From the NCBI GenBank assembly GCA_019309565.1, contig JAFDFZ010000017.1, forward strand, positions 39,296 to 103,295: a DNA stretch of 64,000 nt, given 5' to 3'. Under the pieces are notes generated by a model that saw only the letters and a program-made list of their open reading frames with translations, was not told where the DNA came from and searched no databases. The DNA is from Deltaproteobacteria bacterium (GTDB lineage Bacteria > Desulfobacterota > Desulfobacteria > Desulfobacterales > SURF-15). The position numbers were made by a program, and so were the translations under genes. Shown in pieces: positions 464 to 17,932 of the stretch. Each line of letters opens with the position of its first letter. Positions within the stretch are counted from its first letter, which is position 1.

Positions 464-508
464 GATTTCGAATTATTTCGAAAAAAGAATTTGAAAATCT
501 TCTAAAGC
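464..508 (+). promoter_or_regulatory. Candidate activator site (UAS) of a sigma54 regulator
   Basis: TTTCGAATTATTTCGAAAAAAGAATTTGAAAATCTTCTAAAG; resembles the motifs at 4524 and 16910; 85 bp upstream of the -24/-12 candidate at 591. Confidence 0.5.
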
Positions 509-590
509 GTACCTTTGACAAGCAACAATCATTTGATAATAATTTGCCATAACCATGCGAAGTTATTAATTTATATATCTTTCAGTTTTA

Positions 591-606
591 TGGCACACTT
601 CGTGCT
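591..606 (+). promoter_or_regulatory. Candidate sigma54 -24/-12 promoter
   Basis: TGGCACACTTCGTGCT against TGGCACGNNNNTTGCW; GG and GC spacing correct. Confidence 0.55.
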
Positions 607-843
607 CAAAGAAAACTTAAATTTCATTCAACGGCGGCTATATGGTTTTCAAAGGATTAGGAGTGCGAAACTTAAGTACCCGTTTCATAAGAGGTTGATG
701 GTATCGCATATCATCCTGGATGTACCTTGCGTGGCTAGTCCGCACTTTATGATGTGCAAATTCGACAGGTTTTTGATCAAATCGATATCAGGCTGGAGGA
801 AATAGAAGATTAGAATTGCTGTGGCGCAACATAGGTCACAAAG

Positions 844-1053
844 GTGGATGATTTTCTATCGGTTGCCATGCCGGCAAGAAATCTGGGAATTGCCGAAGCC
901 GATGGGTTCTCAGAGATGATCGTTCCCTGTTCGGCTTGCTATTCAAGGATGATGGTAGTCCAAAAACAGCTTGAATATGATATCGCTCTCAAAAGGGAGA
1001 TTAATCTAGAACTTACCAAAAAAATCCAAGGCAAAGAAGGAATTGCAAAATAG
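844..1053 (+). pseudogene. Fragment of heterodisulfide reductase subunit B (HdrB, CCG-domain)
   Basis: Peptide ...LSVAMPARNLGIAEADGFSEMIVPCSACYSRMMVVQKQLEYDIAL matches the internal part of HdrB (PARNLxIAE, PCSACYSRM); N-terminal CCG motif and C-terminal half are absent. Confidence 0.7.
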
Positions 1054-1112
1054 ACTGAACGAAGATCACTCAGATATAAGAATCTAATAGTGAAAGAACG
1101 AGGAAACAGACT

Positions 1113-1565
1113 ATGCCATTAAGCCCATCTCGCTTCATCAATGACTATGATCTCACCCTGAAGAAGCTTAAGGAAGCTCATCATTCAGAATGTTTTTTTC
1201 AGCGCAACTCACCTGTGGGCAATCTTCGTTTCAGCTTCTCTAAGGATGGTACTCTGATGGGAGAATTTATTTGTTCCACTGAACATCAGGGCTACCAGGG
1301 TATCGTCCATGGGGGAATCATTTCCGCGGTAATCGATGCTTCAATGGTACAATGTTGCATGGGACACGGTTTTATCACCTACACCACTGATCTCTCCATC
1401 CGTTACAGAAGACCGGTGATGATCAACACACCATGTGTTTTACAGACTCGAATCGTATCTATTGCCCGAAGAGTTCTGTTCTTGTTGGAAACTCGGATTA
1501 TGCAGAATGGTCAGGTACATGTTGAGGCTAATGGGCGCTTTTTCAAAGCAAAATATCCCTGTTGA
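1113..1565 (+). CDS. PaaI-family (hotdog) thioesterase
   Basis: 150-aa ORF with GYQGIVHGGIISAVIDASM hotdog motif. Confidence 0.75.
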   Translation: MPLSPSRFINDYDLTLKKLKEAHHSECFFQRNSPVGNLRFSFSKDGTLMGEFICSTEHQGYQGIVHGGIISAVIDASMVQCCMGHGFITYTTDLSIRYRRPVMINTPCVLQTRIVSIARRVLFLLETRIMQNGQVHVEANGRFFKAKYPC

Positions 1566-1685
1566 TTTTTATAAAATATTGTCGGAGAGAAACAAAACAA
1601 GTATAATTTTGATGAATTGGTCCTTTCGGATGATTTCAATTGGCGAAGGGCGGTTCTAATGGTTCAATCCGTATGAGGAGGAAAA

Positions 1686-2434
1686 ATGTCTCTTAATGGA
1701 AACAAAGGTAAAGCTTATTATGACGGAAAAGAAATTGAATTCAAACTTCCTGGGAACTGGAGCCTGCTGGTTAAGGCAGAGCCCAGAGCCGTTTCCGAGC
1801 TTGATAACATTTTTCTGAGGAGGTTGTAAGGGGAGTTCGGAATCCCATAAACGCAAAACCCTTAGCACAGTTGGCATTCTCTGGCATGAAGGTTGTCATC
1901 ATCAGCGAGGACCAGACCCGTCCATCACCTGTCGGCAACGTGGTGCTTCCAGTGCTGGGGGAGTTGAATGCCCTGGGAATCCCCGATGAAAATGTGGAAA
2001 TCGTGATCGGATGAGGCACCCACCGATCGCCGAGCCGGGAAGAAATCATTGCCAAGCTGGGAGATGAAGTGGTGGATCGTGTTCGGGTAAGCGTGCACTA
2101 CGCCGACAATAGGGATAATCTGGTACACATCGGTACGACAAGCCGGGGTACACCGGTTTGGCTCAATCGCACAGTAGCGGAGGCAGACATCACGGTGGTT
2201 ATTGGTACCGTCAATCCTCACTATTTTGCCGGATACAGTGGGGGGGGGCCTAAGATTTTGCTTCCTGGCGTCTCCGGCAGAGACACCCTGCGCAAGAACC
2301 ATGTTCTTATTCGAGACCCGAATACGGTGCAGGGCAAGATGGATGGCAATCCCATCTGGGAGGATATGCTGGAGGTGGCTCGGCTAGCGAAACTAACCTA
2401 TCTGGTGAATTTCGTGCATGTGGATGGGCACTAA
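1686..2434 (+). pseudogene. Degenerate LarA-like / DUF2088 nickel-dependent racemase family gene, N-terminal half only
   Basis: LarA-like blocks (ISEDQTRPSP, GTHRSPSREE, NPHYFAGYSGGGPKILLPGV, GNPIWEDMLE) spread over two frames with a frameshift near 1815, an in-frame TGA at about 2012, and truncation at FVHVDGH. Confidence 0.75.
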
Positions 2435-2471
2435 TTTAAGCCCTTTTGTTCGGTTGCTTGAACCAAAACGG

Positions 2472-2550
2472 TGAGCCCTATTGAATTGCGCTTTGAGCAC
2501 CCCTTTGGAGATTGAAGATCCTGCTTATCCGGGCTGCGGGATCTTCAATC
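2472..2550 (-). repeat. Dispersed GC-rich repeat D, copy D1
   Basis: GAGCCCTATTGAATTGCGCTTTGAGCACCCCTTTGGA plus hairpin ATTGAAGATCC..GGATCTTCAAT; related sequences at 15712, 29700, 37105, 59398, 62103. Confidence 0.6.
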
Positions 2551-2556
2551 AAAAAG

Positions 2557-3035
2557 CAGCAATTCTCGGTGAATTTTCTATGGAGCCGGGTGATTGGATT
2601 TTGAAGCGCTCAACTGTTTGAAGCATCGTAAAGTTGCCAATGGAGTTAAGTCGAATAAAATTTTTAAAGGCAAAATAATTACACCGAAGCTCTTAGGCGG
2701 CCATCCAATCGGAAACATCGAGCTTAAGGCACATGGGAAGTAGCGCTAAGTAGCGGAAGATCTTGATAGCTCTGGTTTAACCGCTTTGTTGACTCCCATT
2801 GTGCCGTCATCGAAGGATGGTAAAGTGTATTTTGCCTTTAAAAATTTCATTCGACGCCATCACACTAAGGCATTTCATAGAAATAGGGGGGTGCGAAACT
2901 TGAGTAACGATAAATCCATTCTTGAAGCCATGGCCAGGCTCAGTTTTAGGATCACTTTTGTACGAGTTTTGAGCGCGTAAAAATCTGCTTATCCGTTGAA
3001 ATTAAAGGTGTTTTATTGTTCACCGAGAATTACTG
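2557..3035. mobile_element. MITE-like element A1 (composite, 479 bp) with terminal inverted repeats and 9-bp target duplication
   Basis: Ends CAGCAATTCTCGGTGAA ... TTCACCGAGAATTACTG; flanked on both sides by ATCAAAAAG (2548-2556 and 3036-3044). Confidence 0.8.
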
Positions 3036-3056
3036 ATCAAAAAGGAACATACCGCA

Positions 3057-4445
3057 ATGATTACCTATACCATATATGTTGTTGATGATGAACAAACCAT
3101 CCGGGAAGGCATTACCATGGCGCTTGAATCAGATTACCGGATGAGGGCTTTCATTACTGCCGAGTCTGCACTTAAAGCCATTGAGAAAAAACCCCCGGAT
3201 CTTGTTCTGCTCGATATCGGACTGCCCGGTATGAGCGGAATTGAAGCGCTTAAGGAAATTAAGCGTCTTTACCCGCATATTCTCATCATAATGATTACCG
3301 CTTATGAAGACATCAATACTGTAATTTCTGCCATGAAATCAGGTGCATATGATTATGTGGTTAAGCCCATCCATATGGAGGGCCTGGAAGTTACCATCCG
3401 AAATGCTTTTCAGACCATCAGGTTAAGAAAGGAAGTTCAAATCCTTCAAGAGAAATACCTTAAGGAAAACCTGCCATGCTTTATAGCCGAGAGTAACGCC
3501 ATTCAGAATGTAATGGAATTTATAGACACGGTGGCAAAGAGCCCGGATACACCGATCCTGATCATGGGGGAAACCGGTACTGGCAAAGAGTTGCTTGCCA
3601 GTGCCATCCATTACAGAAGTCCCAATTTTAAAGGGCCTTTAATGACGGTGAACTGTGCTGCCATCCCGAAAGATCTTATTGAAAGTGAGCTTTTTGGTTA
3701 TGAAAAGGGAGCCTTTAGCGGTGCAAGTACATCTGGCAAAAAGGGCTTAATAGAGGAAGCGGCGAACGGAACTCTTTTTCTTGATGAGATAGGCGACTTG
3801 AGTTTTGAAGCACAGGCAAAGCTGCTAAGATTTCTTGAAGAAGGGGAGTTCTATCGGGTGGGAGGGACAAAAAAAATTCATGTTAAAACAAGGGTAGTTT
3901 CTGCAACAAATAAAAATCTAGATCGTATGATGGAAGAGGGCCAATTTCGAAAAGACCTTTTCTTTCGATTAAGCGTTATTAAGGTTCAAGTACCAACGCT
4001 GAATGAGCGCCCTGATGATATTCTAGCCCTTGCAAAGCACTTCTTGTATGAGTTCAGCCAAAAATTTGGTAAAGAATTTACTGGAATTTCTTCTCAAGCG
4101 CAGAGAGCCCTTGAGATTCACAATTGGACGGGGAATGTTCGTGAATTAAAAAACATTATGGAAAGAGGGGTTCTGGTTGGTAAGGGCCCGATTCTGCAGT
4201 TCGAAGACCTGGGCCTGACAGAATCTCCTGTAAATGACACCTTCCAGCCGGTAAAAGATGAATTCGTTTTTCCTCCTCTGTCTGAAACCGGCATCGATCT
4301 TTCCAAGGCTCAGGAATCCCTGGAAAAATATTATATTCAGGCAGCACTTCGCATGGCTAAAGGGAATGAAAGCAAGGCAGCCAAACTCCTCAACATAAAT
4401 CATCACACCTTTCGTTACCGCAGGAAAAAGCTAAGAATAACATAA
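3057..4445 (+). CDS. Sigma54-dependent response regulator (REC-AAA+-Fis HTH, NtrC/AtoC family)
   Basis: VVDDEQTIREG, LLDIGLPG, GETGTGKELLASAIH, ESELFGYEKGAFSGA, C-terminal HTH (AAKLLNINHHTFRYRRKKL). Confidence 0.95.
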   Translation: MITYTIYVVDDEQTIREGITMALESDYRMRAFITAESALKAIEKKPPDLVLLDIGLPGMSGIEALKEIKRLYPHILIIMITAYEDINTVISAMKSGAYDYVVKPIHMEGLEVTIRNAFQTIRLRKEVQILQEKYLKENLPCFIAESNAIQNVMEFIDTVAKSPDTPILIMGETGTGKELLASAIHYRSPNFKGPLMTVNCAAIPKDLIESELFGYEKGAFSGASTSGKKGLIEEAANGTLFLDEIGDLSFEAQAKLLRFLEEGEFYRVGGTKKIHVKTRVVSATNKNLDRMMEEGQFRKDLFFRLSVIKVQVPTLNERPDDILALAKHFLYEFSQKFGKEFTGISSQAQRALEIHNWTGNVRELKNIMERGVLVGKGPILQFEDLGLTESPVNDTFQPVKDEFVFPPLSETGIDLSKAQESLEKYYIQAALRMAKGNESKAAKLLNINHHTFRYRRKKLRIT

Positions 4446-4523
4446 CATCATCTGGTTATCTTAAAAAGCCAAATTGCTTTTAGTGTTGAATCGGTTTCAC
4501 CTGGGATTTTTGGATGGCTGGCA

Positions 4524-4563
4524 TTAGAAATTTTGCGAAAAGAAATTTCGAGGTTTTTCAATT
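4524..4563 (+). promoter_or_regulatory. Candidate activator site (UAS)
   Basis: TTAGAAATTTTGCGAAAAGAAATTTCGAGGTTTTTCAA; nearly the same as the site at 16910. Confidence 0.6.
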
Positions 4564-4646
4564 TTTATATATCATGCTTTCGATTAAATCGTCGTAAGAA
4601 GTATCAACTATCTAAAATCACGTGAATTATTTTAGGCAACTCCTTA

Positions 4647-4662
4647 TGGCACAAATCATGCT
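4647..4662 (+). promoter_or_regulatory. Candidate sigma54 -24/-12 promoter of the NifX/DUF1847/ferredoxin operon
   Basis: TGGCACAAATCATGCT; 84 bp downstream of the UAS core. Confidence 0.65.
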
Positions 4663-4790
4663 TTCTCACTGACAAGGAGGACAGGCAGGTCTTATAGCGA
4701 GCCAAAAAAACTTAAACTATACTATGCAGCCCGTATGACTGTGAACAGGAACATCAGTGATGATTCATACAAAGAAAGGAGGTTTTCAGA

Positions 4791-5213
4791 ATGAAAGTGG
4801 CAGTCAGCGCAACAGAAAAGGACTTGAATGCTGAGATCGATCAGCGTTTCGGGCGATGCCCTTATTTTATAGTAGTTGATACGGACGATATGAGTTTTGA
4901 GGCTTTTGAAAACGAGAGCATGAGGCTGGGGGGAGGTGCCGGGATTCAATCTGCGCAATTTGTGGCCTCTAAAGGTGCCAGGGTTGTAATAACAGGAAAC
5001 ATCGGGCCGAATGCAATGAGTACGCTTTCTGCTGCCGGTATTAAAGTGGTAACCGGCCAAACTGGCACCGTAAGAAAGGCAATAGAGGGTTACAAAGAAG
5101 GTAAGCTAAAAATATCAAGCGAGGCCACTGTCTCTGCTCCTTATGGTATAAGACGAGGCTCCGGTATGGGACGAGGTATGGGGCCTAGAGGAGGTATGGG
5201 GGAGAAACGATGA
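4791..5213 (+). CDS. NifX/NifB-family (dinitrogenase iron-molybdenum cofactor biosynthesis) protein
   Basis: MKVAVSATEKDLNAEIDQRFGRCPYFIVVDTD...; Gly/Arg/Met-rich tail; SD AAAGGAGG. Confidence 0.9.
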   Translation: MKVAVSATEKDLNAEIDQRFGRCPYFIVVDTDDMSFEAFENESMRLGGGAGIQSAQFVASKGARVVITGNIGPNAMSTLSAAGIKVVTGQTGTVRKAIEGYKEGKLKISSEATVSAPYGIRRGSGMGRGMGPRGGMGEKR

Positions 5214-5285
5214 ACAGCCCAACATAGTTTCATATAAGCAGAAGCAGATCCATCCGAATATTTCAACCATCTGTAAGGAGGAAAA

Positions 5286-6020
5286 ATGGATCAGGAGACA
5301 GAAAAAATCCCCCGATGTGCTGAATGTAAAATCGAAAAAACAATATGCCGACACGAAGACGGAAACGGACCGGTCTATTGCCCGACGATCAATTTTAGTG
5401 ACGTGGTCCAAGCCTCACGTTTAGAATATGACAGGCTTGAAATAAGAGATTTTGCCGTCAATGCAACCATTCAAGAGGGAGAATGTTATGTAAACAAAGA
5501 AAAGAGCAACCCTCATGTTCGATATGCCATAAAACCCAGGGTTCAGGAAACCATCGAATTTGCACACAAGATGGGTTTTCAAAGACTGGGGCTTGCTTTT
5601 TGCGGAGGTCTAAAACATGAGGCAAAGATTTTATCTGAGATATTGAAAGAACAGGGTTTTGAGCTGGCCTCCGTGGTCTGTGCTGTTGGAAGAACAGCCA
5701 AGGAATTTCTTAAAATTAAAGAAGAACAAAAAGTAAACCCCGGAGAGTATGAGGCCATGTGCAGCCCCATCGCTCAGGCAAAGGTTCTGAATGCTGTAAA
5801 CACGGAATTCAATATTGTATTCGGATTATGCGTTGGGCATGATTCTTTGTTTATGCGGTATTCTGATGCATTATGTACTGTACTGGTTGCAAAGGACAGG
5901 GTAACGGGGCACAATCCTCTGGCAGCGATTAACCTGTATAAATCCTATTACAGGAAATTGAAAGAGGAAAAATTCAATAAAGGAGGAAGTGTAACGGTTT
6001 CCATCGAAGAGAATGTATGA
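5286..6020 (+). CDS. DUF1847 domain metal-binding protein
   Basis: CAECKIEKTICRHEDG..YCPT and GLAFCGGLKHEAKIL, GLCVGHDSLF. Confidence 0.85.
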   Translation: MDQETEKIPRCAECKIEKTICRHEDGNGPVYCPTINFSDVVQASRLEYDRLEIRDFAVNATIQEGECYVNKEKSNPHVRYAIKPRVQETIEFAHKMGFQRLGLAFCGGLKHEAKILSEILKEQGFELASVVCAVGRTAKEFLKIKEEQKVNPGEYEAMCSPIAQAKVLNAVNTEFNIVFGLCVGHDSLFMRYSDALCTVLVAKDRVTGHNPLAAINLYKSYYRKLKEEKFNKGGSVTVSIEENV

Positions 6021-6034
6021 GGATCTGAAAGCCA

Positions 6035-6460
6035 ATGAACAGGTCAAAAACGACAAGGAAAAATGAGATTGAGAAACTCAAGACCAAGGTCAGAGCAATT
6101 GAAGCTAGGCTTTGCTATCTGAATATAAGGTTAAAAGACATTGAGCGGGGCTTTCCTTCATCCGCTTTAATAGCATTTGTGGATCAAGATAGTTGTATCG
6201 GTTGTGGAACCTGTCGGGATGTTTGTCCTGTTGGAGCCATTTCCATAAAGGAGGTGGCCGAGGTGGATCCGAAACATTGTACAGGCTGTGGCCATTGCGT
6301 CGCACAATGTCCACAGGGCGCTATTACCTTACATCCTGAAAAATTGAAAAATGATAAACAGGTTTCGGCGTGTCTTAAATTACCCCCGCAATTGCATAAA
6401 TCACATAGTAAAACGACCTGCATGCATGATTTATCAGTGCCTGACGCCAGCTCCTTTTGA
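6035..6460 (+). CDS. 2[4Fe-4S] ferredoxin-domain protein with repeat-encoded C-terminus
   Basis: CIGCGTCRDVCPVGAI and CTGCGHCVAQCPQGAI; last ~28 codons lie in repeat E1. Confidence 0.85.
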   Translation: MNRSKTTRKNEIEKLKTKVRAIEARLCYLNIRLKDIERGFPSSALIAFVDQDSCIGCGTCRDVCPVGAISIKEVAEVDPKHCTGCGHCVAQCPQGAITLHPEKLKNDKQVSACLKLPPQLHKSHSKTTCMHDLSVPDASSF

Positions 6461-6487
6461 GTTGTTTTTAAACAACGGTGTTAAGAT
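6376..6487. repeat. Repeat E, copy E1 (uninterrupted)
   Basis: TTAAATTACCCCCGCAATTGCATAAATCACATAGTAAAACGACCTGCATGCATGATTTATCAGT...AACAACGGTGTTAAG aligns along its length with the exon flanks of the group II intron. Confidence 0.7.
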
Positions 6488-6795
6488 TATATATCAATCA
6501 GAATTCATCGTATCCTTCAGATAGGATTAAATCTCAATATAAATAGCATAAAATGATAAATAATTATTGAATAATACAAAATAATAATTATATTATAGGC
6601 GTATGATCATAACTAAGGACTATAGTGCTTAGATAGTAAGAATGCAGATTTGCTTAAGAGATTTGAGCTTCGAGGCTGTTCTGGTTATGGGTACAAACTG
6701 TTAAAAATGCGGGTGACGATTTTGAGATGCCACCCCGAGGAAAAGATAGACACCGCCGTAGGTGGGGTGGTGGATTTTGAAAGGAGGTGTTTGTT

Positions 6796-7125
6796 ATGCC
6801 AGGATTTGATGGAACAGGTCCCAGGGGCGAAGGCCCAATGACAGGAGGTGGTCGTGGATATTGTAACCCCGCCTGGGCGGGATACAGGCCTCTATATGGA
6901 CGGCGATTTGGTTACAGCCGAGGTTATCGAGGGCGGGGTTTCCGAAGAGGCTTTGGTCCCGGTTATGGATTGGGAATAGATTATGCTCCGGGTTACGGTA
7001 TGCCTTATTCGCTGGATTCTTCAAAAGAAGTCGATATGCTCAAGGCCGAAGCGGAAGCCATGAAAAATGACCTTGATGAGATAAACAAGCGTATCGAGGA
7101 ACTGGAAAAAGAATCTTCCGAATAG
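6796..7125 (+). CDS. DUF5320-family small Gly/Arg/Tyr-rich protein
   Basis: MPGFDGTGPRGEGPMTGGGRGYCNPA plus C-terminal coiled coil; SD AAAGGAGG. Confidence 0.8.
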   Translation: MPGFDGTGPRGEGPMTGGGRGYCNPAWAGYRPLYGRRFGYSRGYRGRGFRRGFGPGYGLGIDYAPGYGMPYSLDSSKEVDMLKAEAEAMKNDLDEINKRIEELEKESSE

Positions 7126-7180
7126 GACTTCCTTAAGCCCTTCAGAGGATTTCAGGCATTTAAGTAGACCTCAAAAAGTG

Positions 7181-7214
7181 GCAATAGGGCGAGTCTTAAG
7201 ACTCGCCCTATTGC
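7181..7214. repeat. Perfect 34-bp palindrome between operon genes
   Basis: GCAATAGGGCGAGTCTTAAGACTCGCCCTATTGC is its own reverse complement. Confidence 0.9.
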
Positions 7215-7293
7215 AATGCGAAGCAAAAACCGTAAGCATGAAGATTGTGGATCACGTCAAGATCAGAAAACTGAGAAAGGAGACTATTCCCTC

Positions 7294-7479
7294 ATGTATG
7301 AAATTAAAGTGGATCCGGAAAAGTGCACGGGTTGCGGAGAATGCGTAGAAATCTGTCCAGAAGAAGTTTATGAGTTGGAGGATGAAAAGTCGGTACCGGT
7401 AAATGTAGAGCAGTGCGAGGGCTGTGAAAGCTGTCTTGAAGTCTGCGAGCAAGATGCCATCACCGTGACGGAAGTTTGA
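7294..7479 (+). CDS. 2[4Fe-4S] ferredoxin
   Basis: CTGCGECVEICPEE and CEGCESCLEVCEQDAI. Confidence 0.85.
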   Translation: MYEIKVDPEKCTGCGECVEICPEEVYELEDEKSVPVNVEQCEGCESCLEVCEQDAITVTEV

Positions 7480-7483
7480 TCAG

Positions 7484-8428
7484 GTGGATTTTTCAATCGC
7501 TTTTGGCCCAGTGCCTTCCAGACGTTTAGGACGAAGCCTTGGGATCAACAATATCCCACCCAAGGTATGCACCTATTCTTGTATCTATTGCCAGGTAGGG
7601 CGCACGATTGACATGCAGCTAGCGCGGCGTTCTTTTTATAGACCAGAGAAGATTAAACGGGCTGTTCAGGAAAAAGTTGAAAGACTCAAAGGGGCTGGAG
7701 AATCCATAGACTATCTTACCTTTGTTCCGGATGGAGAACCGACCCTGGACATCAATCTCGGTCGAGAGATCGATCTGTTGAAACCGTTGGGAATCAAAAT
7801 CGCAGTAATCAGCAACAATTCCCTTATATGCCGGCAGGATGTAAGAGAAGATTTGTTTAAAGCAGACCTGATTTCATTGAAGATCGATTCGGCATTTCCT
7901 GAAACGTGGCATCGGATGAATCGACCCATCAAATCGTTACATCTGCCTGAAATATTAGATGCGAGTCTTAAGTTTGCAAAGGAATATAAAGGAAAGCTTA
8001 TTACGGAGATGATGCTGGTTCGACACGTTAACGACAATGACAGGCAAATTAGGCAGATCGCTGATTTCTTAGTCGAACTTCAACCGGCCAAAGCATATTT
8101 GTCAATTCCCACAAGACCCCCTGCGTTGAAGTGGGTGAGGCCACCTGACAGAGATGTTATCGATCGCGCTTATAAAATCTTCCATGAGTTTATCCATCAG
8201 ATGGAATGTATGACTGATTATGAGGGAAATCGTTTCACTTCAACGGATGACATCGAGAAGGATTTGTTGAGCATAACGGCCGTTCACCCATTAAGAAAGG
8301 ACGCCGTGGATAGACTTCTAACTCAGGCAGGAGCCAATTGGGAAATCGTGGAAAAGCTAATCGCTGAAAATCGGATTGCCCAAGCGGAGTACGAAGGGCA
8401 GGTTTTTTACAAGAAAAGGATGAACTGA
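7484..8428 (+). CDS. Radical SAM protein
   Basis: GPVPSRRLGRSLGINNIPPKVCTYSCIYCQVG (CxxxCxxC) and a C-terminal helical region. Confidence 0.88.
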   Translation: MDFSIAFGPVPSRRLGRSLGINNIPPKVCTYSCIYCQVGRTIDMQLARRSFYRPEKIKRAVQEKVERLKGAGESIDYLTFVPDGEPTLDINLGREIDLLKPLGIKIAVISNNSLICRQDVREDLFKADLISLKIDSAFPETWHRMNRPIKSLHLPEILDASLKFAKEYKGKLITEMMLVRHVNDNDRQIRQIADFLVELQPAKAYLSIPTRPPALKWVRPPDRDVIDRAYKIFHEFIHQMECMTDYEGNRFTSTDDIEKDLLSITAVHPLRKDAVDRLLTQAGANWEIVEKLIAENRIAQAEYEGQVFYKKRMN

Positions 8429-8443
8429 GCCGTAGGATAAAAA

Positions 8444-10405
8444 ATGAAATCAGACAGCAGCATGCATGAAGTTTTGTTTCTTCCAAATAACAAAAAAATA
8501 ACCGTACGGGATGGAGAAACGCTCCTTCGGGCTGCCATTGAGGCAGGAGTCCACATTAATGCCTCCTGTGGTGGCGAAGGTGTATGTGGAAAATGTCGGG
8601 TCATTGTTGAAGAAGGAACAGTGCAGGGAGGGGTTACCGAAAAGTTGAGCAGGGAGGATTGGCAAAAAGGATATCGTCAGGCCTGTTTGTCACGTGTTGT
8701 AAGCGATCTTGTCGTGCGGATTCCAGTAGAGTCTTCCATAGATTCAAAAGTGCTAAATCTTCAGACCACGCCCCGGAAAACTGCTCGAATTCGTCACATC
8801 AATCTTGAAGAACTCAAGGAAAAAGGACTTTTCGTACCCCCGGTGGAAAAGCGGTACCTTGAACTGCCCGAACCCACCGTACAGGACAATCTGCCGGATG
8901 TAACCCGCCTGGTGAGTTATTTGAAATTGAAGCACGATGAGCATCGGCTTGAGGTCGATCTGTCGGTGATTCGAAAGATCCCCTCGGTTATGAGGGAAAA
9001 AGACTTTAAGGTAACAGCCACCCTTGCGCGGCCTGTTCGGGATATCGGCAAAACCCGCATTATCAATGTTCAGCCGGGCGATACAACCGACAGGAACTAT
9101 GCCATCGCGATGGACGTTGGTACTACCACCGTTTACGGAGAGGTTATCGATTTAAAAACCGGATCGATATTAAGTCAGTATGGGGATTTTAACGGGCAGA
9201 TCAGTTACGGAGAAGATGTCATCAGCCGGATCGTTTTTGCGGAAAAACCCGGGGGGCTCAACAAGTTACATGAAGTGGTCATAGAGACGATCAACAGGAT
9301 CCTTAAGCGAATTATCAAAAAGGCTGGAATCGACCCGGATGAAATCTCAACCATAACCCTTGCGGGAAATACCACCATGACCCAGTTGATGCTGAACATA
9401 GACCCTCGGTACCTTCGACGCTCTCCTTATGTGCCGGCAGCCACACTGTATCCACCTTTCCGGGCGGCGGATCTGGGAATGGAACTGGGTGATCATGTCA
9501 CGGCTCTTGTTTACCCTGCTGTGTCCAGCTATGTGGGGGGCGATATTGTGGCCGGTGTGATGGGCTCCGGCATGTACCGGACAGAGGAGTTGACCCTTTA
9601 CATGGATATTGGAACCAATGCAGAGATCGTGATCGGAAACAGGGATTGGCTGGCGTGTGCAGCCTGTTCGGCCGGGCCTGCCTTTGAAGGGGGAGGAATA
9701 AAACTGGGCATGCGTGCAATGGAAGGGGCAATCGAGGATTTTTCCATCGATCCACTGACACTTGAACCGATGAACATCACCATCGGCAACGTCCGACCAA
9801 AAGGTATTTGCGGCTCCGGTCTGATTACCGCTGTTGCGACCATGTTTGAAATGGGAATTATTGATAATCGCGGCAAGTTCAACCGCAATCTGGATACTGA
9901 GCGAATTCGCGAAGTAGATGGCATATACGAATATGTGTTGGCCTGGGCAGAGGAGAGCCAGATTGATAGAGATGTCGTACTTACAGAGCCGGATATTGAA
10001 AACCTCATTCGAGCCAAGGGCGCTATGTACAGCGGCTGTATGACGCTTCTGGAAGAAGTGGGCTTAAGCTTTCAGGATATAGATCGGATCATCATGGCCG
10101 GGGGCTTTGGCAGCTATGTGGATTTGGAAAAGGCCATGACCATCGGACTTCTGCCGGAAATCGACCCCGAAAAAGTAACATTTATCGGTAACGGCTCGTT
10201 GATGGGAGCCAGAATGAGTTCGTTGACCAATCGTATCCGGAAAGATGTGGTGGAAGTTACTAAGAAAATGACCAATTTCGAGCTCTCGGAAACACCTTCC
10301 TATATGGATCATTATGTAGCAGCGCTGTTTTTACCACATACAGATATGGATCAATTCACAAAACTGCAAGCACGCTTACGAGCTCGGAAAGAATTGAAAA
10401 ATTAA
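8444..10405 (+). CDS. ASKHA-domain / reductive activator of corrinoid protein-like (2Fe-2S + DUF4445)
   Basis: N-terminal [2Fe-2S] CGGEGVCGKCRVIVEEG; MDVGTTTVYGEVIDL, MDIGTNAEIVIGN, ACSAGPAFEGGGIKLGMRA. Confidence 0.88.
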   Translation: MKSDSSMHEVLFLPNNKKITVRDGETLLRAAIEAGVHINASCGGEGVCGKCRVIVEEGTVQGGVTEKLSREDWQKGYRQACLSRVVSDLVVRIPVESSIDSKVLNLQTTPRKTARIRHINLEELKEKGLFVPPVEKRYLELPEPTVQDNLPDVTRLVSYLKLKHDEHRLEVDLSVIRKIPSVMREKDFKVTATLARPVRDIGKTRIINVQPGDTTDRNYAIAMDVGTTTVYGEVIDLKTGSILSQYGDFNGQISYGEDVISRIVFAEKPGGLNKLHEVVIETINRILKRIIKKAGIDPDEISTITLAGNTTMTQLMLNIDPRYLRRSPYVPAATLYPPFRAADLGMELGDHVTALVYPAVSSYVGGDIVAGVMGSGMYRTEELTLYMDIGTNAEIVIGNRDWLACAACSAGPAFEGGGIKLGMRAMEGAIEDFSIDPLTLEPMNITIGNVRPKGICGSGLITAVATMFEMGIIDNRGKFNRNLDTERIREVDGIYEYVLAWAEESQIDRDVVLTEPDIENLIRAKGAMYSGCMTLLEEVGLSFQDIDRIIMAGGFGSYVDLEKAMTIGLLPEIDPEKVTFIGNGSLMGARMSSLTNRIRKDVVEVTKKMTNFELSETPSYMDHYVAALFLPHTDMDQFTKLQARLRARKELKN

Positions 10406-10557
10406 CTAAAATCCCGGTAATTATGGCAGCCCCCCCCTTGTTGCCGAGAAGAGCAGATAGATAGAAAATACAAACTGGAGAATTCTGAAAGCTGCACAGA
10501 TTGCGCCCATCCGGTAAATCCTCTTTGTTCTGTACGATCAAAAAGGAGACACATTTG

Positions 10558-11355
10558 ATGAAACTTGCGATTTCAGCAGATGGACCTGGTTTAGAAGCTA
10601 ATGTGAGCAATAAAATGGGCATGTCGAAATACGTTTTGATTATAGATTTAGAATCGATAAAAATCGAAGCGGTACCAAACCCGATCGGTCCAGGCCCAGG
10701 TGGAAGCAGCATGCAGGTAGTAGTGCTTGCAATTAGCAAGAAAGTCGATGCTGTGCTAACTGGATATTGCAGTCCCATTGCAAAGAAGTACCTTTTATCC
10801 AATGGTATCGAAGTTATAACCGGAGTCATCGGCACTGTGGGGCAAGTTGTTAAGGATTGTGAGAACGGGCTTTATCAAAACCACAAGACAAGGGATGAAG
10901 AATCTTATCGCCAAAGCCTCCGAATCTACAGGATTTCCATGGTTCATGCGTTGCAGCGCTCAAAAAATCAGATTGTAAACATCCTTCCTATCCTCACAGG
11001 AGTTGTGCTGCTTATCGGGTTGTTTAACGCATTTGCATCAAAGGATATGCTTATGTCTATTTTCTCAAGAAACAGTTTCAAAGATCTTCTATTGGGGGCA
11101 TCCTGCGGCAGTATTTTTGCTGGAAATCCCGTCAATAGTTATGTCATTGGAGGGGAGTTGCTGAATAACGGGGTCAGCCTGTACGCTGTAACTGCTTTCA
11201 TCATTTCATGGGTGACTGTCGGTGCAATACAGTTGCCGGCTGAGATGGCAGCGCTAGGCAAGGGATTTGCTCTTATGCGAAATGGTTTATCTTTTATCTT
11301 GTCAATGGTTATTGCCATGTTTACGGTTATTATTCTCAAGAGTATGGTAGGGTAA
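10558..11355 (+). CDS. NifX-like domain fused to half of a DUF318/ArsP-like permease
   Basis: N-term MKLAISADGPGLEANVSNKMGMSKYVLIID.. (NifX-like); C-term TM region GNPVNSYVIGGELLNNGVSLYAVTAFIISWVTVGAIQLPAE. Confidence 0.75.
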   Translation: MKLAISADGPGLEANVSNKMGMSKYVLIIDLESIKIEAVPNPIGPGPGGSSMQVVVLAISKKVDAVLTGYCSPIAKKYLLSNGIEVITGVIGTVGQVVKDCENGLYQNHKTRDEESYRQSLRIYRISMVHALQRSKNQIVNILPILTGVVLLIGLFNAFASKDMLMSIFSRNSFKDLLLGASCGSIFAGNPVNSYVIGGELLNNGVSLYAVTAFIISWVTVGAIQLPAEMAALGKGFALMRNGLSFILSMVIAMFTVIILKSMVG

Positions 11356-11378
11356 ACAGAGCAAAGGGCAAAGATGAA

Positions 11379-11891
11379 GTGATTACAATAAAAGGACAAA
11401 TTAACCGAGCGATATTTTTTCCGGGGATTATTTTAACCTTATACATACTTCTATTGATTATCACACCTGAAAAAGCGCTTGTGGCGCTTAAAAGCAGCAG
11501 CCAGGTATTTATCAGATTGTGCGTACCTCTGGGTGTAGTTTTCATCCTCATGCTGTTGTTTAATCTTTATCTTAAGCCGGCAGATATTGTAAGGTTTATT
11601 GGAAAGGAATCTGGAATAAAAGGCAAATTCATCTCTGCTTCGGCGGGCATTATCTCTGTGGGACCCGTTTATGCCTGGTATCCGTTGCTTAAAGAACTCA
11701 AAGAGAAAGGCGCTTCAAAGGATTTGATAGCCATTTTTCTTTGCAACAGGGCAATCAAGCCATTTCTTCTTCCGGTTATGATATCATATTTTGGTTGGGT
11801 ATATGTATCGATATTGACGCTATTCACGCTCCTTGGGTCTTTTATCGTTGGATATTGTATTCACATTCTGGTTAAAAATATAATAGAATAA
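11379..11891 (+). CDS. Second half of DUF318-like permease
   Basis: Multi-TM; GIKGKFISASAGIISVGPVYAWYPLLKELKEKG. Confidence 0.65.
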   Translation: MITIKGQINRAIFFPGIILTLYILLLIITPEKALVALKSSSQVFIRLCVPLGVVFILMLLFNLYLKPADIVRFIGKESGIKGKFISASAGIISVGPVYAWYPLLKELKEKGASKDLIAIFLCNRAIKPFLLPVMISYFGWVYVSILTLFTLLGSFIVGYCIHILVKNIIE

Positions 11892-12169
11892 TTTGGTTAT
11901 AAACAAAACCCAAATGAAATCGATTGGGCGGTAAAGGTAACCCGCTTCGCAGGCCTATGAAACTCGCGCATAAGGGGGTGTAACACCGAACAGCGCACCG
12001 ATTGAAACAAAACAGGGTTCAATAACAAATCGTTACGATTTATCGCAGCATATTCCTGCTGTTCGATGCAATGCCCCCTAATGCACTCAAACAGTCATAC
12101 TGCTGCGAATCGACTTACCTTCAACGCCTATTTAAATGCAACTTAGCCTTTGTATATAACCAGATAAAA

Positions 12170-12201
12170 AAATTTTAAAATATTTCGAAAAATTTCTAAA
12201 C
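12170..12201 (+). promoter_or_regulatory. Weaker candidate activator site
   Basis: AATTTTAAAATATTTCGAAAAATTTCTAAAC; shares TTTCGAAAAATTTCTAAA with the other UAS motifs. Confidence 0.35.
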
Positions 12202-12389
12202 GATTTATGTTATCAAAACCAGCCAAAAAACTGATAAAAGATAACTAGGCTTTTTCCGAGACTAAGCCCGGAAAAAGTGGCCTCTTCGAGGCAGTTGAAA
12301 TAAAAACCCAAAGGTATCGCTTCGCTCTTTCATTTTAAAAATAGATAAAATTCCTTAACTTTAGTTCATTTAAGCTCACCCCGTAGTTG

Positions 12390-14338
12390 GTGCGCCGGTA
12401 AAACCGGCGGAAAGTAGTGAATGAAAGTTTCATACGATGAAGACGTAGCGAGTCACATTGGCCCCGAGTCATGCGTGTACCACCGTAAGGGGGAGCGCGA
12501 AGCGTTGACAGGGGAAAGTGCGGGCCAGGTATTGAGCCGCGAAAGGGGGTTTGCTTCGAGGTGCCGACGGTGTCAACTTGCTCGGAAGGCAACACGGAAC
12601 ACATCGCTATCGCAAGAGGTGTTTCGGCCTCGCGTGGTCGTAGACCCTGTGCACGTACGGAAACTTTCCGCGCGGGAACCGGGAGATCCTGAGTCTGGCC
12701 GTAGCCGATGGCGATGCGGTCCGCGCTGTGAATCCCCAGGGAGCACGACAGCGATGAACGGACACAGGAAGTCGGACAGGCCCATAGACACCGAAGAAGC
12801 CGTCGAACAAAAGCAGGTGCGATTCCTGCCGGCGGAGACGGTGGAGGGAAGGGGCCTGACCAAGGAGAATCTGTTCCAACAAAACAAGTACTGTGCGCAG
12901 TACCAGAAAAGGAGCGGTCGTGAAGGCTGACTCGGTCAACTTGCCAAATGCGATGGAACGGATACGACAGGCAGCAAGTCGGGATAAACAGCTGCGGTTT
13001 ACCACGCTCTGGCATCACGTCTATAACACTGAACAGCTTCGCAAGGCTTACTTCAGCCTCAAGCGCAATGCTGCGCCGGGGGTGGACGGTGAGACGTGGC
13101 GGCATTACAGCGAGAATTTGGAGGCCAACCTTCAGGATCTCAGCAGCAAGCTGCAGCGCGGAGCGTACCGGGCAAGGCCGGTGAGAGGAGCGTACATCCC
13201 CAAAGCCGATGGTCGCCAGCGACCATTGGGCATCACGGTGCTGGAGGATAAGATAGTCCAACGCGCTACGGTGGAGGTGATGGAGGCGATCTATGAGCAG
13301 GACTTTGTCGGTTTCTCGTATGGATTTCGTCCTGGGCGCAGTGCGCATGATGCGCTCAACGCCCTGTATGGGGCCATCATGACGAGAAAGGTAAGCTGGG
13401 TGCTGGATGCAGACATTCGAGGGTACTTTGATGCCATCGACCACGGGTGGCTGATGAAGTTCATCGAGCACCGCATTGCGGACAAGCGCGTTGTGAGGCA
13501 CATCAAAAAGTGGCTCAACGCCGGTGTGCTTGAACAGGGGGCGGTGACGCATAAGGAGGGAGGCGTACCCCAGGGGGGCAGTGTCAGTCCCTTGCTGGCA
13601 AACGTCTATCTGCATTATGTGTTTGATCTGTGGGCTGATCAGTGGAGGTCGCAGCATGCCGAGGGTGATGTTATCATCGTCAGGTTTTGTGATGATTTTG
13701 TGGTTGGCTTTCAGTACCGCAGGGACGCTGAAAGGTTCTTGGCTGATCTTCGGCAACGTTTTCTGAAGTTTAACCTGCAGCTTCATAAGGACAAGACACG
13801 GCTGATTGAGTTCGGCCGGTTTGCGGCCGCCAATCGTAAACGCCATGGTAAAGGAAAACCACAGACGTTCGATTTTCTTGGTTTTACTCATATATGCGGT
13901 AAGACTGAGAACGGAAAGTTTATGGTGCTCCGACACACCATTGGCAAGCGGATGCGGGCCAAACTTAAGGAGCTTAAAATAGAACTCAAACGGCGTCTGC
14001 ATAACCCTGTACCGGTTGTGGCGGAATGGTTGCGTGTGGTGTTGCTTGGTCATTATCGATACTATGGTGTTCCAGGCAACAGTCGGAAACTGCATTCATT
14101 TTATTTCCAATTGGGTCGCATGTGGCATAAGGCGCTGCTTCGTCGCAGCCAACGCCATCGGCTTAACTGGAAACGAATGAGCCGACTCATTAATCGCTGG
14201 CTGCCACGACCGCGCATATGTCACTCATATCCTGATTTGAGTCTGTACGTCACTACCCGAGGTAGGAGCCCAGTGCGGTAGTTCCGCTCGCTGGGATCTG
14301 TTCGGGGGGTGCGAGGTAACTCGCATTCCTACCGCGAC
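12390..14338 (+). mobile_element. Group II intron (ribozyme + maturase)
   Basis: 5' GTGCGCCGG...; ends ...CTACCGCGAC; domain V-like GAGCCCAGTGCGGTAGTTCCGCTCGCTGGGATCTGTTC at about 14268; encodes an LtrA-type RT; boundaries supported by E1 as empty-site homologue. Confidence 0.88.
12893..14281 (+). CDS. ltrA: Group II intron reverse transcriptase/maturase
   Basis: RT blocks PKADGRQRPLGI, FSYGFRPGRSAHDAL, GGVPQGGSVSPLLANVYLH, RFCDDFVVGF, TFDFLGFTH; no HNH endonuclease domain seen. Confidence 0.93.
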   Translation: MRSTRKGAVVKADSVNLPNAMERIRQAASRDKQLRFTTLWHHVYNTEQLRKAYFSLKRNAAPGVDGETWRHYSENLEANLQDLSSKLQRGAYRARPVRGAYIPKADGRQRPLGITVLEDKIVQRATVEVMEAIYEQDFVGFSYGFRPGRSAHDALNALYGAIMTRKVSWVLDADIRGYFDAIDHGWLMKFIEHRIADKRVVRHIKKWLNAGVLEQGAVTHKEGGVPQGGSVSPLLANVYLHYVFDLWADQWRSQHAEGDVIIVRFCDDFVVGFQYRRDAERFLADLRQRFLKFNLQLHKDKTRLIEFGRFAAANRKRHGKGKPQTFDFLGFTHICGKTENGKFMVLRHTIGKRMRAKLKELKIELKRRLHNPVPVVAEWLRVVLLGHYRYYGVPGNSRKLHSFYFQLGRMWHKALLRRSQRHRLNWKRMSRLINRWLPRPRICHSYPDLSLYVTTRGRSPVR

Positions 14339-14535
14339 CATAAATCACATAGCAAAATGGCCCGCATGCACAATTTATCAGTAACTGAGGATGGTGCCTT
14401 ATGAATAGTTTTGCAACAACGGGGCTCACTTTAAACTTTAGTTCACTATTTGTCCCTACTAACATAGCATATAATTCAATACATCCCTCTAAGCACCTAT
14501 AGGTAATTACAACATCTATACAGTTTGACGGCTAT

Positions 14536-14551
14536 CGGCATACTTTCTGCA
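14536..14551 (+). promoter_or_regulatory. Weak sigma54-like -24/-12 candidate
   Basis: CGGCATACTTTCTGCA; GG/GC spacing correct but four mismatches. Confidence 0.25.
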
Positions 14552-14594
14552 ATATAAAAAACTTGATGGATGCTTTCAATTAAGGAGACTTAAT

Positions 14595-14846
14595 ATGATA
14601 AAAACAAATTTATATTCATGGCAGATTATTTTGATCCATATGCAAGAAGATTTAGCTGTAATGAAAGAAAAATTTTTAGTTGTCGAAGATGGATTAGATG
14701 CCGATGATCAATTTTTACAGTTAGTGAATAAAATTGAATCTGATATTGAAGAGTTATACAAATACCTCCAGCAACAGACCGTATCTTCAGATAAAGTCAG
14801 AGCTGAAGAAGATTACCAACATCTGTTAGATAATATACCACTCTAA
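14595..14846 (+). CDS. Small hypothetical protein (83 aa)
   Basis: Good SD (AAGGAG) and acidic helical ORF. Confidence 0.5.
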   Translation: MIKTNLYSWQIILIHMQEDLAVMKEKFLVVEDGLDADDQFLQLVNKIESDIEELYKYLQQQTVSSDKVRAEEDYQHLLDNIPL

Positions 14847-14872
14847 TCAAAGACCAAACATCTGCCAAAAAA

Positions 14873-15505
14873 TCATTTTATGCAACGCAGTAATCTGCTT
14901 TTTCCTGATGGGGTGTGCAACAAATGAACCTTTGAAAAAATTTTTTTGAAGGGTTCAAGACCTGCACCAAGAAGAGCCCTGACATCAGTGGATCCTACCA
15001 GGATCATTCGTATCTTGAACAGAAATCTTACAATCGGATGTTTAGGTGCTTCATGCTCCATTATCAAAACTGACGCCTGACCGGGTTTGACAACTCGCTT
15101 CATCTCCTTAAGAGCATCTGTTCGAACTGCACCTTTCAGTTCGTATAGGGCATAGGAGCAGGCAACCACGTCAAATATATCATTTGAGAATGGAAGCAGG
15201 GCTGCATCTGCCTCTATGAAAAGTGCCTTTTGGTTGGGATTTTTCTTTTTCGCTTTCCGAAGCATGCCGTGTGAAAAGTCAAGGCCTACTGCGGTACTTT
15301 TCGGGTATCTTTTGGCAAAGGTGAGAATTAAGCTACCGGTTCCGCAGCAGATATCCAATATATAAGGTTTTGCAATGCCTTCAAGCTGAGCGGAATCAAC
15401 CAAAATTTCGCGAGTGCTTTGCTCATCCCGCAGAGAATGAAGCGCAATAAACATGTCATAAAAATGTGAGAATAAGTCGTAGTATCTGCGTCTGCTATAT
15501 TGCAT
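14873..15505 (-). CDS. Class I SAM-dependent methyltransferase
   Basis: YILDICCGTGSLILTFAKRYP, VVACSYALYELKG. Confidence 0.85.
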   Translation of the reverse strand: MQYSRRRYYDLFSHFYDMFIALHSLRDEQSTREILVDSAQLEGIAKPYILDICCGTGSLILTFAKRYPKSTAVGLDFSHGMLRKAKKKNPNQKALFIEADAALLPFSNDIFDVVACSYALYELKGAVRTDALKEMKRVVKPGQASVLIMEHEAPKHPIVRFLFKIRMILVGSTDVRALLGAGLEPFKKIFSKVHLLHTPSGKSRLLRCIK

Positions 15506-15711
15506 TTCTGAGTGAATAACGGATTAAGAGATTTCCAGAAAAAGGCTCACCTTGAAACAGCGCCCATTAGAAAAAACTTCTAAAAAAGGTAACAGTTTGG
15601 CCTTTTGAAAAACTACGCTTACGGATCGTCTGGTCCTGCCACCGGTAAAATTTCCTTTTTTCATCGGGAAAAACTCGAAAAAAGGCTCGTAGAAAAGAAC
15701 CGTGCTTCGAT

Positions 15712-15844
15712 TTGAAGACCCTGCAGACCGGCTGAGCGGGATCTTCGCCTTGCTTCGACAAGCTGCGGGATATGCACTCGCTCAGTTGAATGCCCGAAGG
15801 GGTGCGCAGAGCGCAATTCAACAGGGCTCGCTGTTTCGGTTCAG
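15712..15844 (+). repeat. Dispersed repeat D, copy D2
   Basis: GAAGACCCTGCAG...GGGATCTTCGCC...TTGCTTCGACAAGCTGCGGG...GTTGAATGCCCGAAGGGGTGCGCAGAGCGCAATTCAACAGGGCTCGCTGTTTCGG. Confidence 0.65.
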
Positions 15845-15845
15845 T

Positions 15846-16652
15846 TTACTGTGAGATTCGGATAATCGCCCCAAGGCCGCCTTCAAGAAATCTATCCCTC
15901 CAGGCCTGCCGGAAAAGTGAAATGGCCTTATTTCCTGTGCAATGGCTGGGGGCGACCTTTTTTACGCCTAATTTTTTAAGTGCCTCAAGAATTTTCATTA
16001 TCTTTTCATAACTCATGCCGGATAGATGAAATCCACCCATTACAAGATAAACTGTATCTACGAAATGCTCATGTGCTTTTCTTACAATATTGACGATGCC
16101 AGGGTGTGAACAACCTGTAATGATTACAAGTCCTTTTGTTGTCCGAAGGATTAATGCCTGCTCTTTAATCCATCGTCCCATTTCTCCACTTGAGTAAGCT
16201 TGCTTCATAAGTAGGGTGGGATCTTTTATCACTTTGATGTTTGCTCCATAGCGCAAAATTTTCTGCTTATAGGAACCCGGAAAGGATTCCGGCAAACAAA
16301 CAGTAATATCAGAGTTTTGCCGAAGGAACATTTCTAATCCACCAGTGTGGTCGCCATGAATATGCGAGAGGAACACCATTTTCACTTCCATTGGATCTTT
16401 GTTCAAAAGAGTCATATTTTCAAGCAGTAGCTGACCGTTTCCACCCGTATCAAATAGGATCGTCTGCGCGGTACCTTCGATAAGACAAGAAAATCCCCAG
16501 GCGGCCCTCAACTGTTTCTTAAAAGGTACATTGTTATAAGTGACGGTAATGCTGATGGGGGAGGCCTGGGTTTTCCTATTTCCGTGTAACATAAAGAAGC
16601 CTGTTGAAAAAACAACCAGGATAAATACTATCATATAATCCCGATATATCAT
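15846..16652 (-). CDS. MBL-fold metallohydrolase
   Basis: FLSHIHGDHTGGLEMF, GCSHPGIVNIV, GGFHLSGMSYE, APSHCTG. Confidence 0.88.
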   Translation of the reverse strand: MIYRDYMIVFILVVFSTGFFMLHGNRKTQASPISITVTYNNVPFKKQLRAAWGFSCLIEGTAQTILFDTGGNGQLLLENMTLLNKDPMEVKMVFLSHIHGDHTGGLEMFLRQNSDITVCLPESFPGSYKQKILRYGANIKVIKDPTLLMKQAYSSGEMGRWIKEQALILRTTKGLVIITGCSHPGIVNIVRKAHEHFVDTVYLVMGGFHLSGMSYEKIMKILEALKKLGVKKVAPSHCTGNKAISLFRQAWRDRFLEGGLGAIIRISQ

Positions 16653-16909
16653 CTCCGAAACCTAAAAGATTCATTTGCCATTACTCGATTCAATCCTCAA
16701 GCTTTTTCAGCAAATCAAATGTTGGGGGGGTCGGATAAACCAGGTCATTTATATGATAATTCTGTTTTTCTTCTGTTATCTTGAGGGCAATCTTTATGCC
16801 ATAAAAGTGTTTATGAATCATAAAATTCTCTCAGCCCGAAAGGGATAAGGGCATCTTTTCGAATCGCCTTAAAATTCATTATAGACAATTTTGCTAAGAG
16901 GAAGGTAAT

Positions 16910-16949
16910 TTAGAAATTTTGAGAAAAGAAATTTAGAAATTTTTCTAAA
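16910..16949 (+). promoter_or_regulatory. Candidate activator site (UAS)
   Basis: TTAGAAATTTTGAGAAAAGAAATTTAGAAATTTTTCTAAA. Confidence 0.6.
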
Positions 16950-17031
16950 ATTTGGTATCCAAAACAGACTTGGAATCGGTTATAGTATAAAGTTCTTTGA
17001 AATCATTACACTTATTTCATCGTTTTTCCCC

Positions 17032-17047
17032 TGGTATCCATCATGCA
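17032..17047 (+). promoter_or_regulatory. Candidate sigma54 -24/-12 promoter
   Basis: TGGTATCCATCATGCA; 83 bp downstream of the UAS core. Confidence 0.5.
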
Positions 17048-17209: not shown

Positions 17210-17932
17210 ATGAGGATTCTGGATGGCTTGATATCAGCACTGGAGTTTGACAGCGTTGTTCGAGACATCCGCCAGGGGGTCTTTTACACCGGAGTGCTGA
17301 CTCGAAATTGCGGTCTGGCCGCCACCCTTCCCCGGGATGCCCTGCACCAAGAAGCACCGCTGGTAAAAGAGCCCGGAATCTTAATGGAAAAAAGCGCTTT
17401 GGAGCTTGCGCACCTGGCCTATTCCTCCAGCCTGCTCGAAGCAGCTATTGGTATGGCAGCAATAAATTCGCTGCTTAAGATTGACCAGGACGTATGCCTG
17501 GAATTAAATGCTGCTGAATTGATCAAGGATAAAGGAGATGGCAAAAAAATTGCCGTTGTAGGGCATTTTCCTTTCATTCCCAGGCTGCGTGAATATGCCA
17601 AGGAACTATGGGTAATAGAGAAAAATCCGAAAAAGGGGGATTTCGGTGAAGAGATGGCCGACAAACTGATTCCACAGGCCGAGGTAGTAGCGATAACCGG
17701 CAGTGCTATAACAAACCATACCATAGAACACCTGCTTTCGTTATGTGATTCCAGGGCTTACGTTATTTTATTGGGTGGCTCTGCTCCGCTGTCGCCGATA
17801 CTGTTCGACTACGGTGTGAATGCTGTGTCGGGCACAATGGTTATTGATTCGGCTGTTGCGTTGCGGTGTGTAAGTGAAGGGGCAAATTTCAGGCAGATAA
17901 AAGGTGTTGTACGGTTGACCATGAAAAAGTAG
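17210..17932 (+). CDS. DUF4213/DUF364 (Rossmann-like, putative metal-chelation) protein
   Basis: LTRNCGLAATLPRD, AAINSLL, IAVVGHFPFIPRLRE, ITGSAITNHTIEHLL. Confidence 0.8.
   Translation: MRILDGLISALEFDSVVRDIRQGVFYTGVLTRNCGLAATLPRDALHQEAPLVKEPGILMEKSALELAHLAYSSSLLEAAIGMAAINSLLKIDQDVCLELNAAELIKDKGDGKKIAVVGHFPFIPRLREYAKELWVIEKNPKKGDFGEEMADKLIPQAEVVAITGSAITNHTIEHLLSLCDSRAYVILLGGSAPLSPILFDYGVNAVSGTMVIDSAVALRCVSEGANFRQIKGVVRLTMKK

Follow-up and report, generated by a model that had tools for sequence, protein, structure and literature searches.

The DNA considered here is a 64,000-nucleotide stretch (G000:C281:39296-103295, the window) of a Desulfobacterales (SURF-15) genome of 5.47 Mb in 288 contigs. 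It carries three copies of a control element in which two tandem palindromes precede a sigma54-type -24/-12 promoter, together with the gene of an NtrC-type response regulator (3057-4445) that is predicted to bind them. An earlier note on this DNA had proposed motif/promoter pairs of a local regulon under this regulator. The architecture of the elements, their genome-wide specificity, their conservation and their covariation with the regulator can all be read from sequence comparison. They very probably represent a real, previously undescribed sigma54 gene control circuit of related anaerobes, of a known general kind. The whole model (regulator, tandem enhancers, a bend induced by integration host factor [IHF], sigma54 promoters and a clustered regulon) is, in our judgment, highly likely to be correct.

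Architecture of the sites and their occurrence in the genome

Each real site consists of two tandem 18-bp palindromes of the TTTCGAAA-TT-TTTCTAAA type with starts 22-23 bp apart, followed by a -24/-12 element 100-103 bp after the start of the second palindrome (five sites in the genome). An IHF-like block is placed between the palindromes and the -24/-12 element. In the window, the pairs are found at 466/489 (site B), 4523/4546 (site A) and 16909/16932 (site C), with 23 bp from one palindrome start to the next; the -24 box has its TGG 100-102 bp past the start of the promoter-proximal palindrome (Table 1). The motif and -24/-12 sequences quoted in the earlier note are present where it had placed them, and its distances of 84, 83 and 85 bp from motif core to promoter are correct. 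The three palindromes that it listed are likewise real; however, it gave the promoter-proximal copies alone, and each of these has a distal partner.

When up to one mismatch is allowed, TTTMGAAANNTTTCKAAA has five matches in the 5.47 Mb, four of them on contig C281 (binomial P = 6e-7; three of these four motivated the motif, while the fourth, C281:30727, is new). Loose matches with three mismatches number 241 in the genome versus 308 for a reversed-pattern control. The whole unit, palindromes and promoter, was described by a sequence-only covariance model (R1) built from 18 sites. Scanning the genome with R1 gives exactly five strong matches, with E-values from 3e-20 to 1e-15. All of them lie within 28 kb, at C281:28.5-56.3 kb, and the next-best match is partial (E 1e-4). 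The own-genome sites are among the R1 training sites, which makes their E-values optimistic; that no further strong match turns up is still informative. Three of the five full sites are inside the window and two are upstream of it on the same contig, such that all five strong matches are local, as expected for the local regulon that had been suggested. Near matches at C132, C22, C9 and C164 were rejected as sites, as they are without the tandem and promoter architecture. The genome also encodes RpoN (PF04552, E=2e-62).

Conservation in relatives

In a held-out test, a matrix from the five C281 sites alone was combined with a generic -24/-12 matrix. In relatives, this matrix finds 13 sites, scoring 43-62 bits, at eight loci with regulator orthologues of 67-72% identity; the real sites of the own genome score 52-60 bits. 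As controls, both strands of 74 loci whose regulators are more distant (2.1 Mb) reach at most 15.0 bits, and 6.2 Mb of Markov shuffles at most 14.8 bits. Hence, the three proposed enhancer/promoter pairs of the window stand far above the at most 15 bits of shuffles and control loci. The earlier note had accepted as refutation a genome scan in which motif and spacing are as frequent as in shuffled sequence; they are not, and the claim survived.

The spacing was counted in 80 sites from the relatives and the own genome, 79 of which score at least 38 bits. The distance to the promoter is 98-103 bp in 72 of these 79, even though 92-117 was allowed, and the palindromes are spaced by 22 or 23 bp in 77 sites, which leaves 4-5 bp between the 18-mers. 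The sites thus have the set distance and same-face placement of upstream activator sites that mark a sigma54-dependent regulon. A -24/-12 promoter (TGGCAY-N6-TGCW) is present at all five own and 74 held-out sites, and the GG and GC of the element are kept in 99-100% of the held-out sites; the promoter and its positions were, however, also search criteria. In 18 sites whose selection took no account of it, the IHF-like block YAANNNNTTGATW peaks sharply at exactly -42 from the TGG, with a score of 6.0/9 compared with a mean over offsets of 3.4 (sd 0.56).

The proposed regulator and its match to the motif

Its Pfam domains identify the 3057-4445 product as an NtrC-type sigma54 enhancer-binding response regulator. 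Of 194 genomes from the order, 47 encode an orthologue of it (E<=1e-130) and 22 have R1 matches in the sequence-only scan (E<=1e-6), with both present in 17 genomes (Fisher P = 3e-8, ignoring kinship). After subtraction of the nine genomes that supplied training sites, the regulator is found in 8 of 13 motif genomes (P = 9e-4, again ignoring kinship). The scan of relatives proposed earlier was also extended to a separate sample of the phylum, where eight other genomes have an R1 match at E<=1e-7. All eight encode an orthologue (64-76% identity), and none of the four motif-negative genomes tested in that sample does.

Moreover, the orthologue adjoins sites in many genomes, and the recognition helix reads [NL]HHT[FY]RYR in most motif genomes. 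Paralogues with the helix SRDTFRYR and genomes with NHHTFRYQ have no sites. Collectively, the co-occurrence across genomes, the match between helix and motif and the failure of a rival regulator (see below) support the assignment of the 3057-4445 product as the binder of the tandem sites, and with it the controller named in the earlier note.

Several observations weigh against this model. The sigma54-contact loop of the 3057-4445 product and of most orthologues of its clade is GAFSGA and not GAFTGA, a conservative change. The window sites score a modest 5-6/9 on the IHF-like block, and site A has a degenerate proximal palindrome. One genome (G001) has a regulator with the right helix where a strong site is absent, and three (G224, G396 and G432) combine sites with altered helices. 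Finally, five genomes (G028, G036, G115, G150 and G171) carry the motif where a close regulator orthologue is absent; G150 and G171 are single-contig assemblies, while G115 is fragmented. The search for a substitute regulator in these five gave as best candidates proteins with a different helix, FRSLRYR or FRSMRYR, which were rejected. At L224 (G171:C1:624000-631600) and L231 (G150), the tandem sites are kept without the close orthologue. In G171, the second site reads TCGCAC, with one -24 G lost, and the receiver open reading frame (ORF) is short, which raises the possibility of a decaying regulon.

Alternative explanations

AT-rich intergenic DNA gives TTTNGAAA-like palindromes and -24/-12 matches occur frequently, such that the sites could be products of chance. 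The many loose matches noted above would fit this idea, and site D (discussed below) is an example of a spurious promoter-like string. Yet the full architecture occurs just five times in the genome, is absent from the control loci and the shuffles, and recurs in relatives at fixed spacing. Chance is therefore scarcely credible. The tandem sites might also be operators of a repressor or a sigma70 regulator, with the -24/-12 likeness being secondary; indeed, repression of its own sigma70 promoter via such a site is a second role of DVU2106 in Desulfovibrio (PMC3897727). Against this reading, which we regard as very improbable, the -24/-12 element is among the best-conserved parts (with the reservation about search criteria given above) and its distance of 98-103 bp is strongly fixed.

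A further alternative accepts the sites as real sigma54 enhancers, but of another enhancer-binding protein, e.g., a second response regulator encoded on this contig (L017:16353-17810). This protein is encoded within the cluster beside its own kinase (pair L017:14804-17810 = C281:34804-37810), and this view would accommodate the five motif genomes in which the 3057-4445 regulator has no close orthologue. However, orthologues of the second regulator (at least 64% identity, 30 genomes) are present in only 5 of the 22 motif genomes (Fisher P = 0.24), in contrast to the strong association, the frequent adjacency to sites and the presence in every motif-positive genome of the phylum sample that characterize the 3057-4445 regulator. 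We consider another binder unlikely and favor the 3057-4445 product.

Predicted target genes, probable sensor kinase and proposed mechanism

Predicted from the sites, the targets in the own genome are a receiver gene, cooS (TIGR01702), an hdrB fragment with a 4HBT gene, a NifX/ORP-DUF1847-ferredoxin-RACo operon and a DUF364 gene. The product of the first gene of the site A operon (4791-5213) weakly matches the C-terminal part of MrpORP, and operons in G054 and G166 start with the same NifX/ORP-type gene. Among relatives, sites precede cooS and HdrC/HdrB (both in G124 and G166) and the receiver gene (several genomes); cooS is 80-82% identical across genomes. NifX/ORP and Mrp-like ATPase targets are found in G000, G054, G124, G166 and G191, and the receiver gene, cooS, HdrC/B and ORP recur across genomes. 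Further targets in relatives include universal stress protein (Usp), CBS, Hsp20, CstA, PFOR, acyl-CoA ligase, NifU-like and kinase genes. In G054, the order is site, receiver gene and regulator gene, which suggests that the regulator is autoregulated.

A GAF/PAS-like histidine kinase (L017:6777-8495) is encoded directly upstream of the receiver-gene site. Kinases adjoining the regulator in L022 and L026 are its orthologues, 56-59% identical over approximately 390 residues; for the contig's second kinase the value is approximately 31%. The L017:6777-8495 kinase is therefore the likely sensor of the regulator.

In the model proposed here, the regulator, phosphorylated probably by this kinase, would bind the tandem 18-bp palindromes as two dimers, two helical turns apart (22-23 bp), approximately 100 bp upstream of the -24/-12 promoters. 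An IHF-like protein would bend the DNA approximately 42 bp before the -24 box, allowing the AAA+ ring to touch sigma54-RNA polymerase and the promoter to open. The signal might be energy or redox limitation. The five predicted targets named at the start of this section are physically clustered in this genome. More tentatively, the regulon may be one case of a sigma54 regulon for energy limitation, similar to a dormancy response, that is conserved among anaerobes of the Desulfobacterota type. Through one tandem enhancer code, a single two-component regulator would then switch on CO dehydrogenase, Hdr-type electron-transfer proteins, iron-sulfur ORP/Mrp proteins and universal stress, CBS and Hsp20 proteins, as an anaerobic counterpart of DosR or NmpR.

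The motif, its spacing, the regulator and the recognition helix form a control code that can now be read in mostly uncultured anaerobes with almost no known regulation, and CO dehydrogenase and corrinoid/iron-sulfur accessory genes would be tied to one switch. R1 can be used to annotate the regulon in other genomes, and the correspondence between helix and motif (NHHTFRYR versus SRDTFRYR) makes the specificity of the clade directly testable.

Comparison with known systems

The closest known systems are the orp operons/DVU2106 of D. vulgaris and NmpR of Myxococcus xanthus; neither is identical to the new regulon. The orp1/orp2 operons and DVU2106 combine sigma54 promoters with palindromic activator sites 88-131 bp upstream and with IHF sites between enhancer and promoter (PMC3897727; PMC4641369). 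The new regulon shares with them sigma54 promoters, upstream palindromes, an intervening IHF(-like) site and ORP/Mrp-type targets: NifX/ORP and Mrp-like genes are among its targets, and its IHF-like block is at -42. In contrast, DVU2106 is listed as single-component (PMC4641369) while the new regulator has a receiver domain, and the new targets extend to cooS, Hdr, Usp and CBS genes.

NmpR is an NtrC-like response regulator with two dyad sites upstream of a sigma54 promoter and with Usp and CBS proteins among its targets or neighbours (PMC11841059). The new regulon resembles it in regulator type, tandem dyads, sigma54 and Usp/CBS. NmpR sites read GCGCA-N5-TGCGC with 14-15 bp between them, unlike the TTTCGAAA-type sites with 4-5 bp between 18-mers, and NmpR belongs to a heme kinase phosphorelay with oxygen-utilisation targets in an aerobe. 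As far as the main text of two reports goes (PMC3333781, PMC4641369), the sigma54 response-regulator regulons of D. vulgaris share the REC-AAA+-Fis composition, palindromic sites and motif conservation with orthologues; neither a TTTCGAAA-type motif nor a cooS/Usp/CBS regulon appears in that text. When the text of freely readable papers was searched for a TTTCGAAA site linked to sigma54 and for a CO dehydrogenase regulon under sigma54, nothing relevant came up.

Table 1. Features of the regulon in the window and on contig C281 (window coordinates unless prefixed)
Feature	Position	Strand	Remarks
Proposed regulator	3057..4445	+	REC (PF00072, E=3e-28), sigma54 AAA+ (PF00158), Fis-type HTH (PF02954) ending NHHTFRYRRKK
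Tandem site	C281:28529/28552		Outside window; precedes TGGCACGATTGATGCT, then receiver-only response regulator gene
Tandem site	C281:30705/30727		Outside window; precedes TGGCATGCTTCATGCT, then cooS
Site B distal palindrome TTTCGAATTATTTCGAAA	466..483	+	1 mismatch to TTTMGAAANNTTTCKAAA
Site B proximal palindrome ATTTGAAAATCTTCTAAA	489..506	+	23 bp past distal copy
Site B -24/-12 element TGGCACACTTCGTGCT	591..606	+	R1 E=1e-15; precedes hdrB fragment, 4HBT thioesterase gene, larA fragments
Site A distal palindrome ATTAGAAATTTTGCGAAA	4523..4540	+	
Site A proximal palindrome TTTCGAGGTTTTTCAATT	4546..4563	+	Degenerate; 5 mismatches, register kept
Site A IHF-like block	4605..4617	+	42 bp before TGG; 6/9 match to YAANNNNTTGATW
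Site A -24/-12 element TGGCACAAATCATGCT	4647..4662	+	R1 E=8e-17; precedes NifX/ORP-DUF1847-ferredoxin-RACo operon
Site C distal palindrome TTTAGAAATTTTGAGAAA	16909..16926	+	
Site C proximal palindrome TTTAGAAATTTTTCTAAA	16932..16949	+	Perfect
Site C IHF-like block	16990..17002	+	6/9 match
Site C -24/-12 element TGGTATCCATCATGCA	17032..17047	+	R1 E=2e-16; precedes DUF364/DUF4213 gene
4HBT thioesterase ORF	1113..1565	+	Pfam 4HBT; sole intact gene of decayed site B operon
NifX/ORP-type protein (Nitro_FeMo-Co)	4791..5213	+	Pfam; first gene of site A operon
RACo/AcsV-like ASKHA corrinoid activator	8444..10405	+	Site A operon; Pfam RACo domains; NCBIfam AcsV 702 bits vs cut-off 800
DUF364/DUF4213 gene	17210..17932	+	Pfam; putative heavy-metal chelation; site C target
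Site D palindrome TTTCGAAAAATTTCTAAA	12183..12200	+	Single, perfect; 1 of only 2 perfect matches in genome; without good tandem partner
Dispersed repeat	12238..12379, right part ~14434-14481	+	At least 40 genome copies; holds false promoter 12278-12293
Candidate -24/-12 element CGGCATACTTTCTGCA	14536..14551	+	Beyond repeat; precedes small ORF

Further loci and site D

The operon behind site B is decayed: window 843-2434 holds an HdrB-like fragment, the 4HBT gene and fragments of a LarA nickel-dependent racemase (one larA fragment is at 2069-2434), although the enhancer and promoter ahead of them appear intact. At L209 (G115:C273) and L206 (G124:C89), several tandem sites are found within tens of kb, near Usp, CBS, starch-synthase-like and Mrp genes. 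Judging by the positions of the sites, the regulon tends toward physical clustering in other families too. A weaker tandem motif (31-37 bits with R1) occurs at L241 and L242 (G180, G068), together with a variant helix, NHHTFRYRHRK, and with acyl-CoA ligase or cytidylate-kinase-like targets. Motif and helix together could possibly represent a diverged sister code.

The earlier note had also listed a fourth, weaker pair (12183/12278), here called site D. This pair was rejected, since its -24/-12 string, TGGCCTCTTCGAGGCA at 12278, is part of the dispersed repeat, which a group II intron (RF02005) splits in two. The repeat resumes beyond the intron to about 14481, and the intron reverse transcriptase ORF is at 12893-14281. 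The ORF at 14595-14846 has no Pfam match. With repeat and intron removed, the distance from 12183 to the candidate element at 14536 is 95-122 bp, according to where the repeat is taken to end. The site D palindrome may thus be a real enhancer that was orphaned from the 14536 promoter by insertion of the repeat and the intron.

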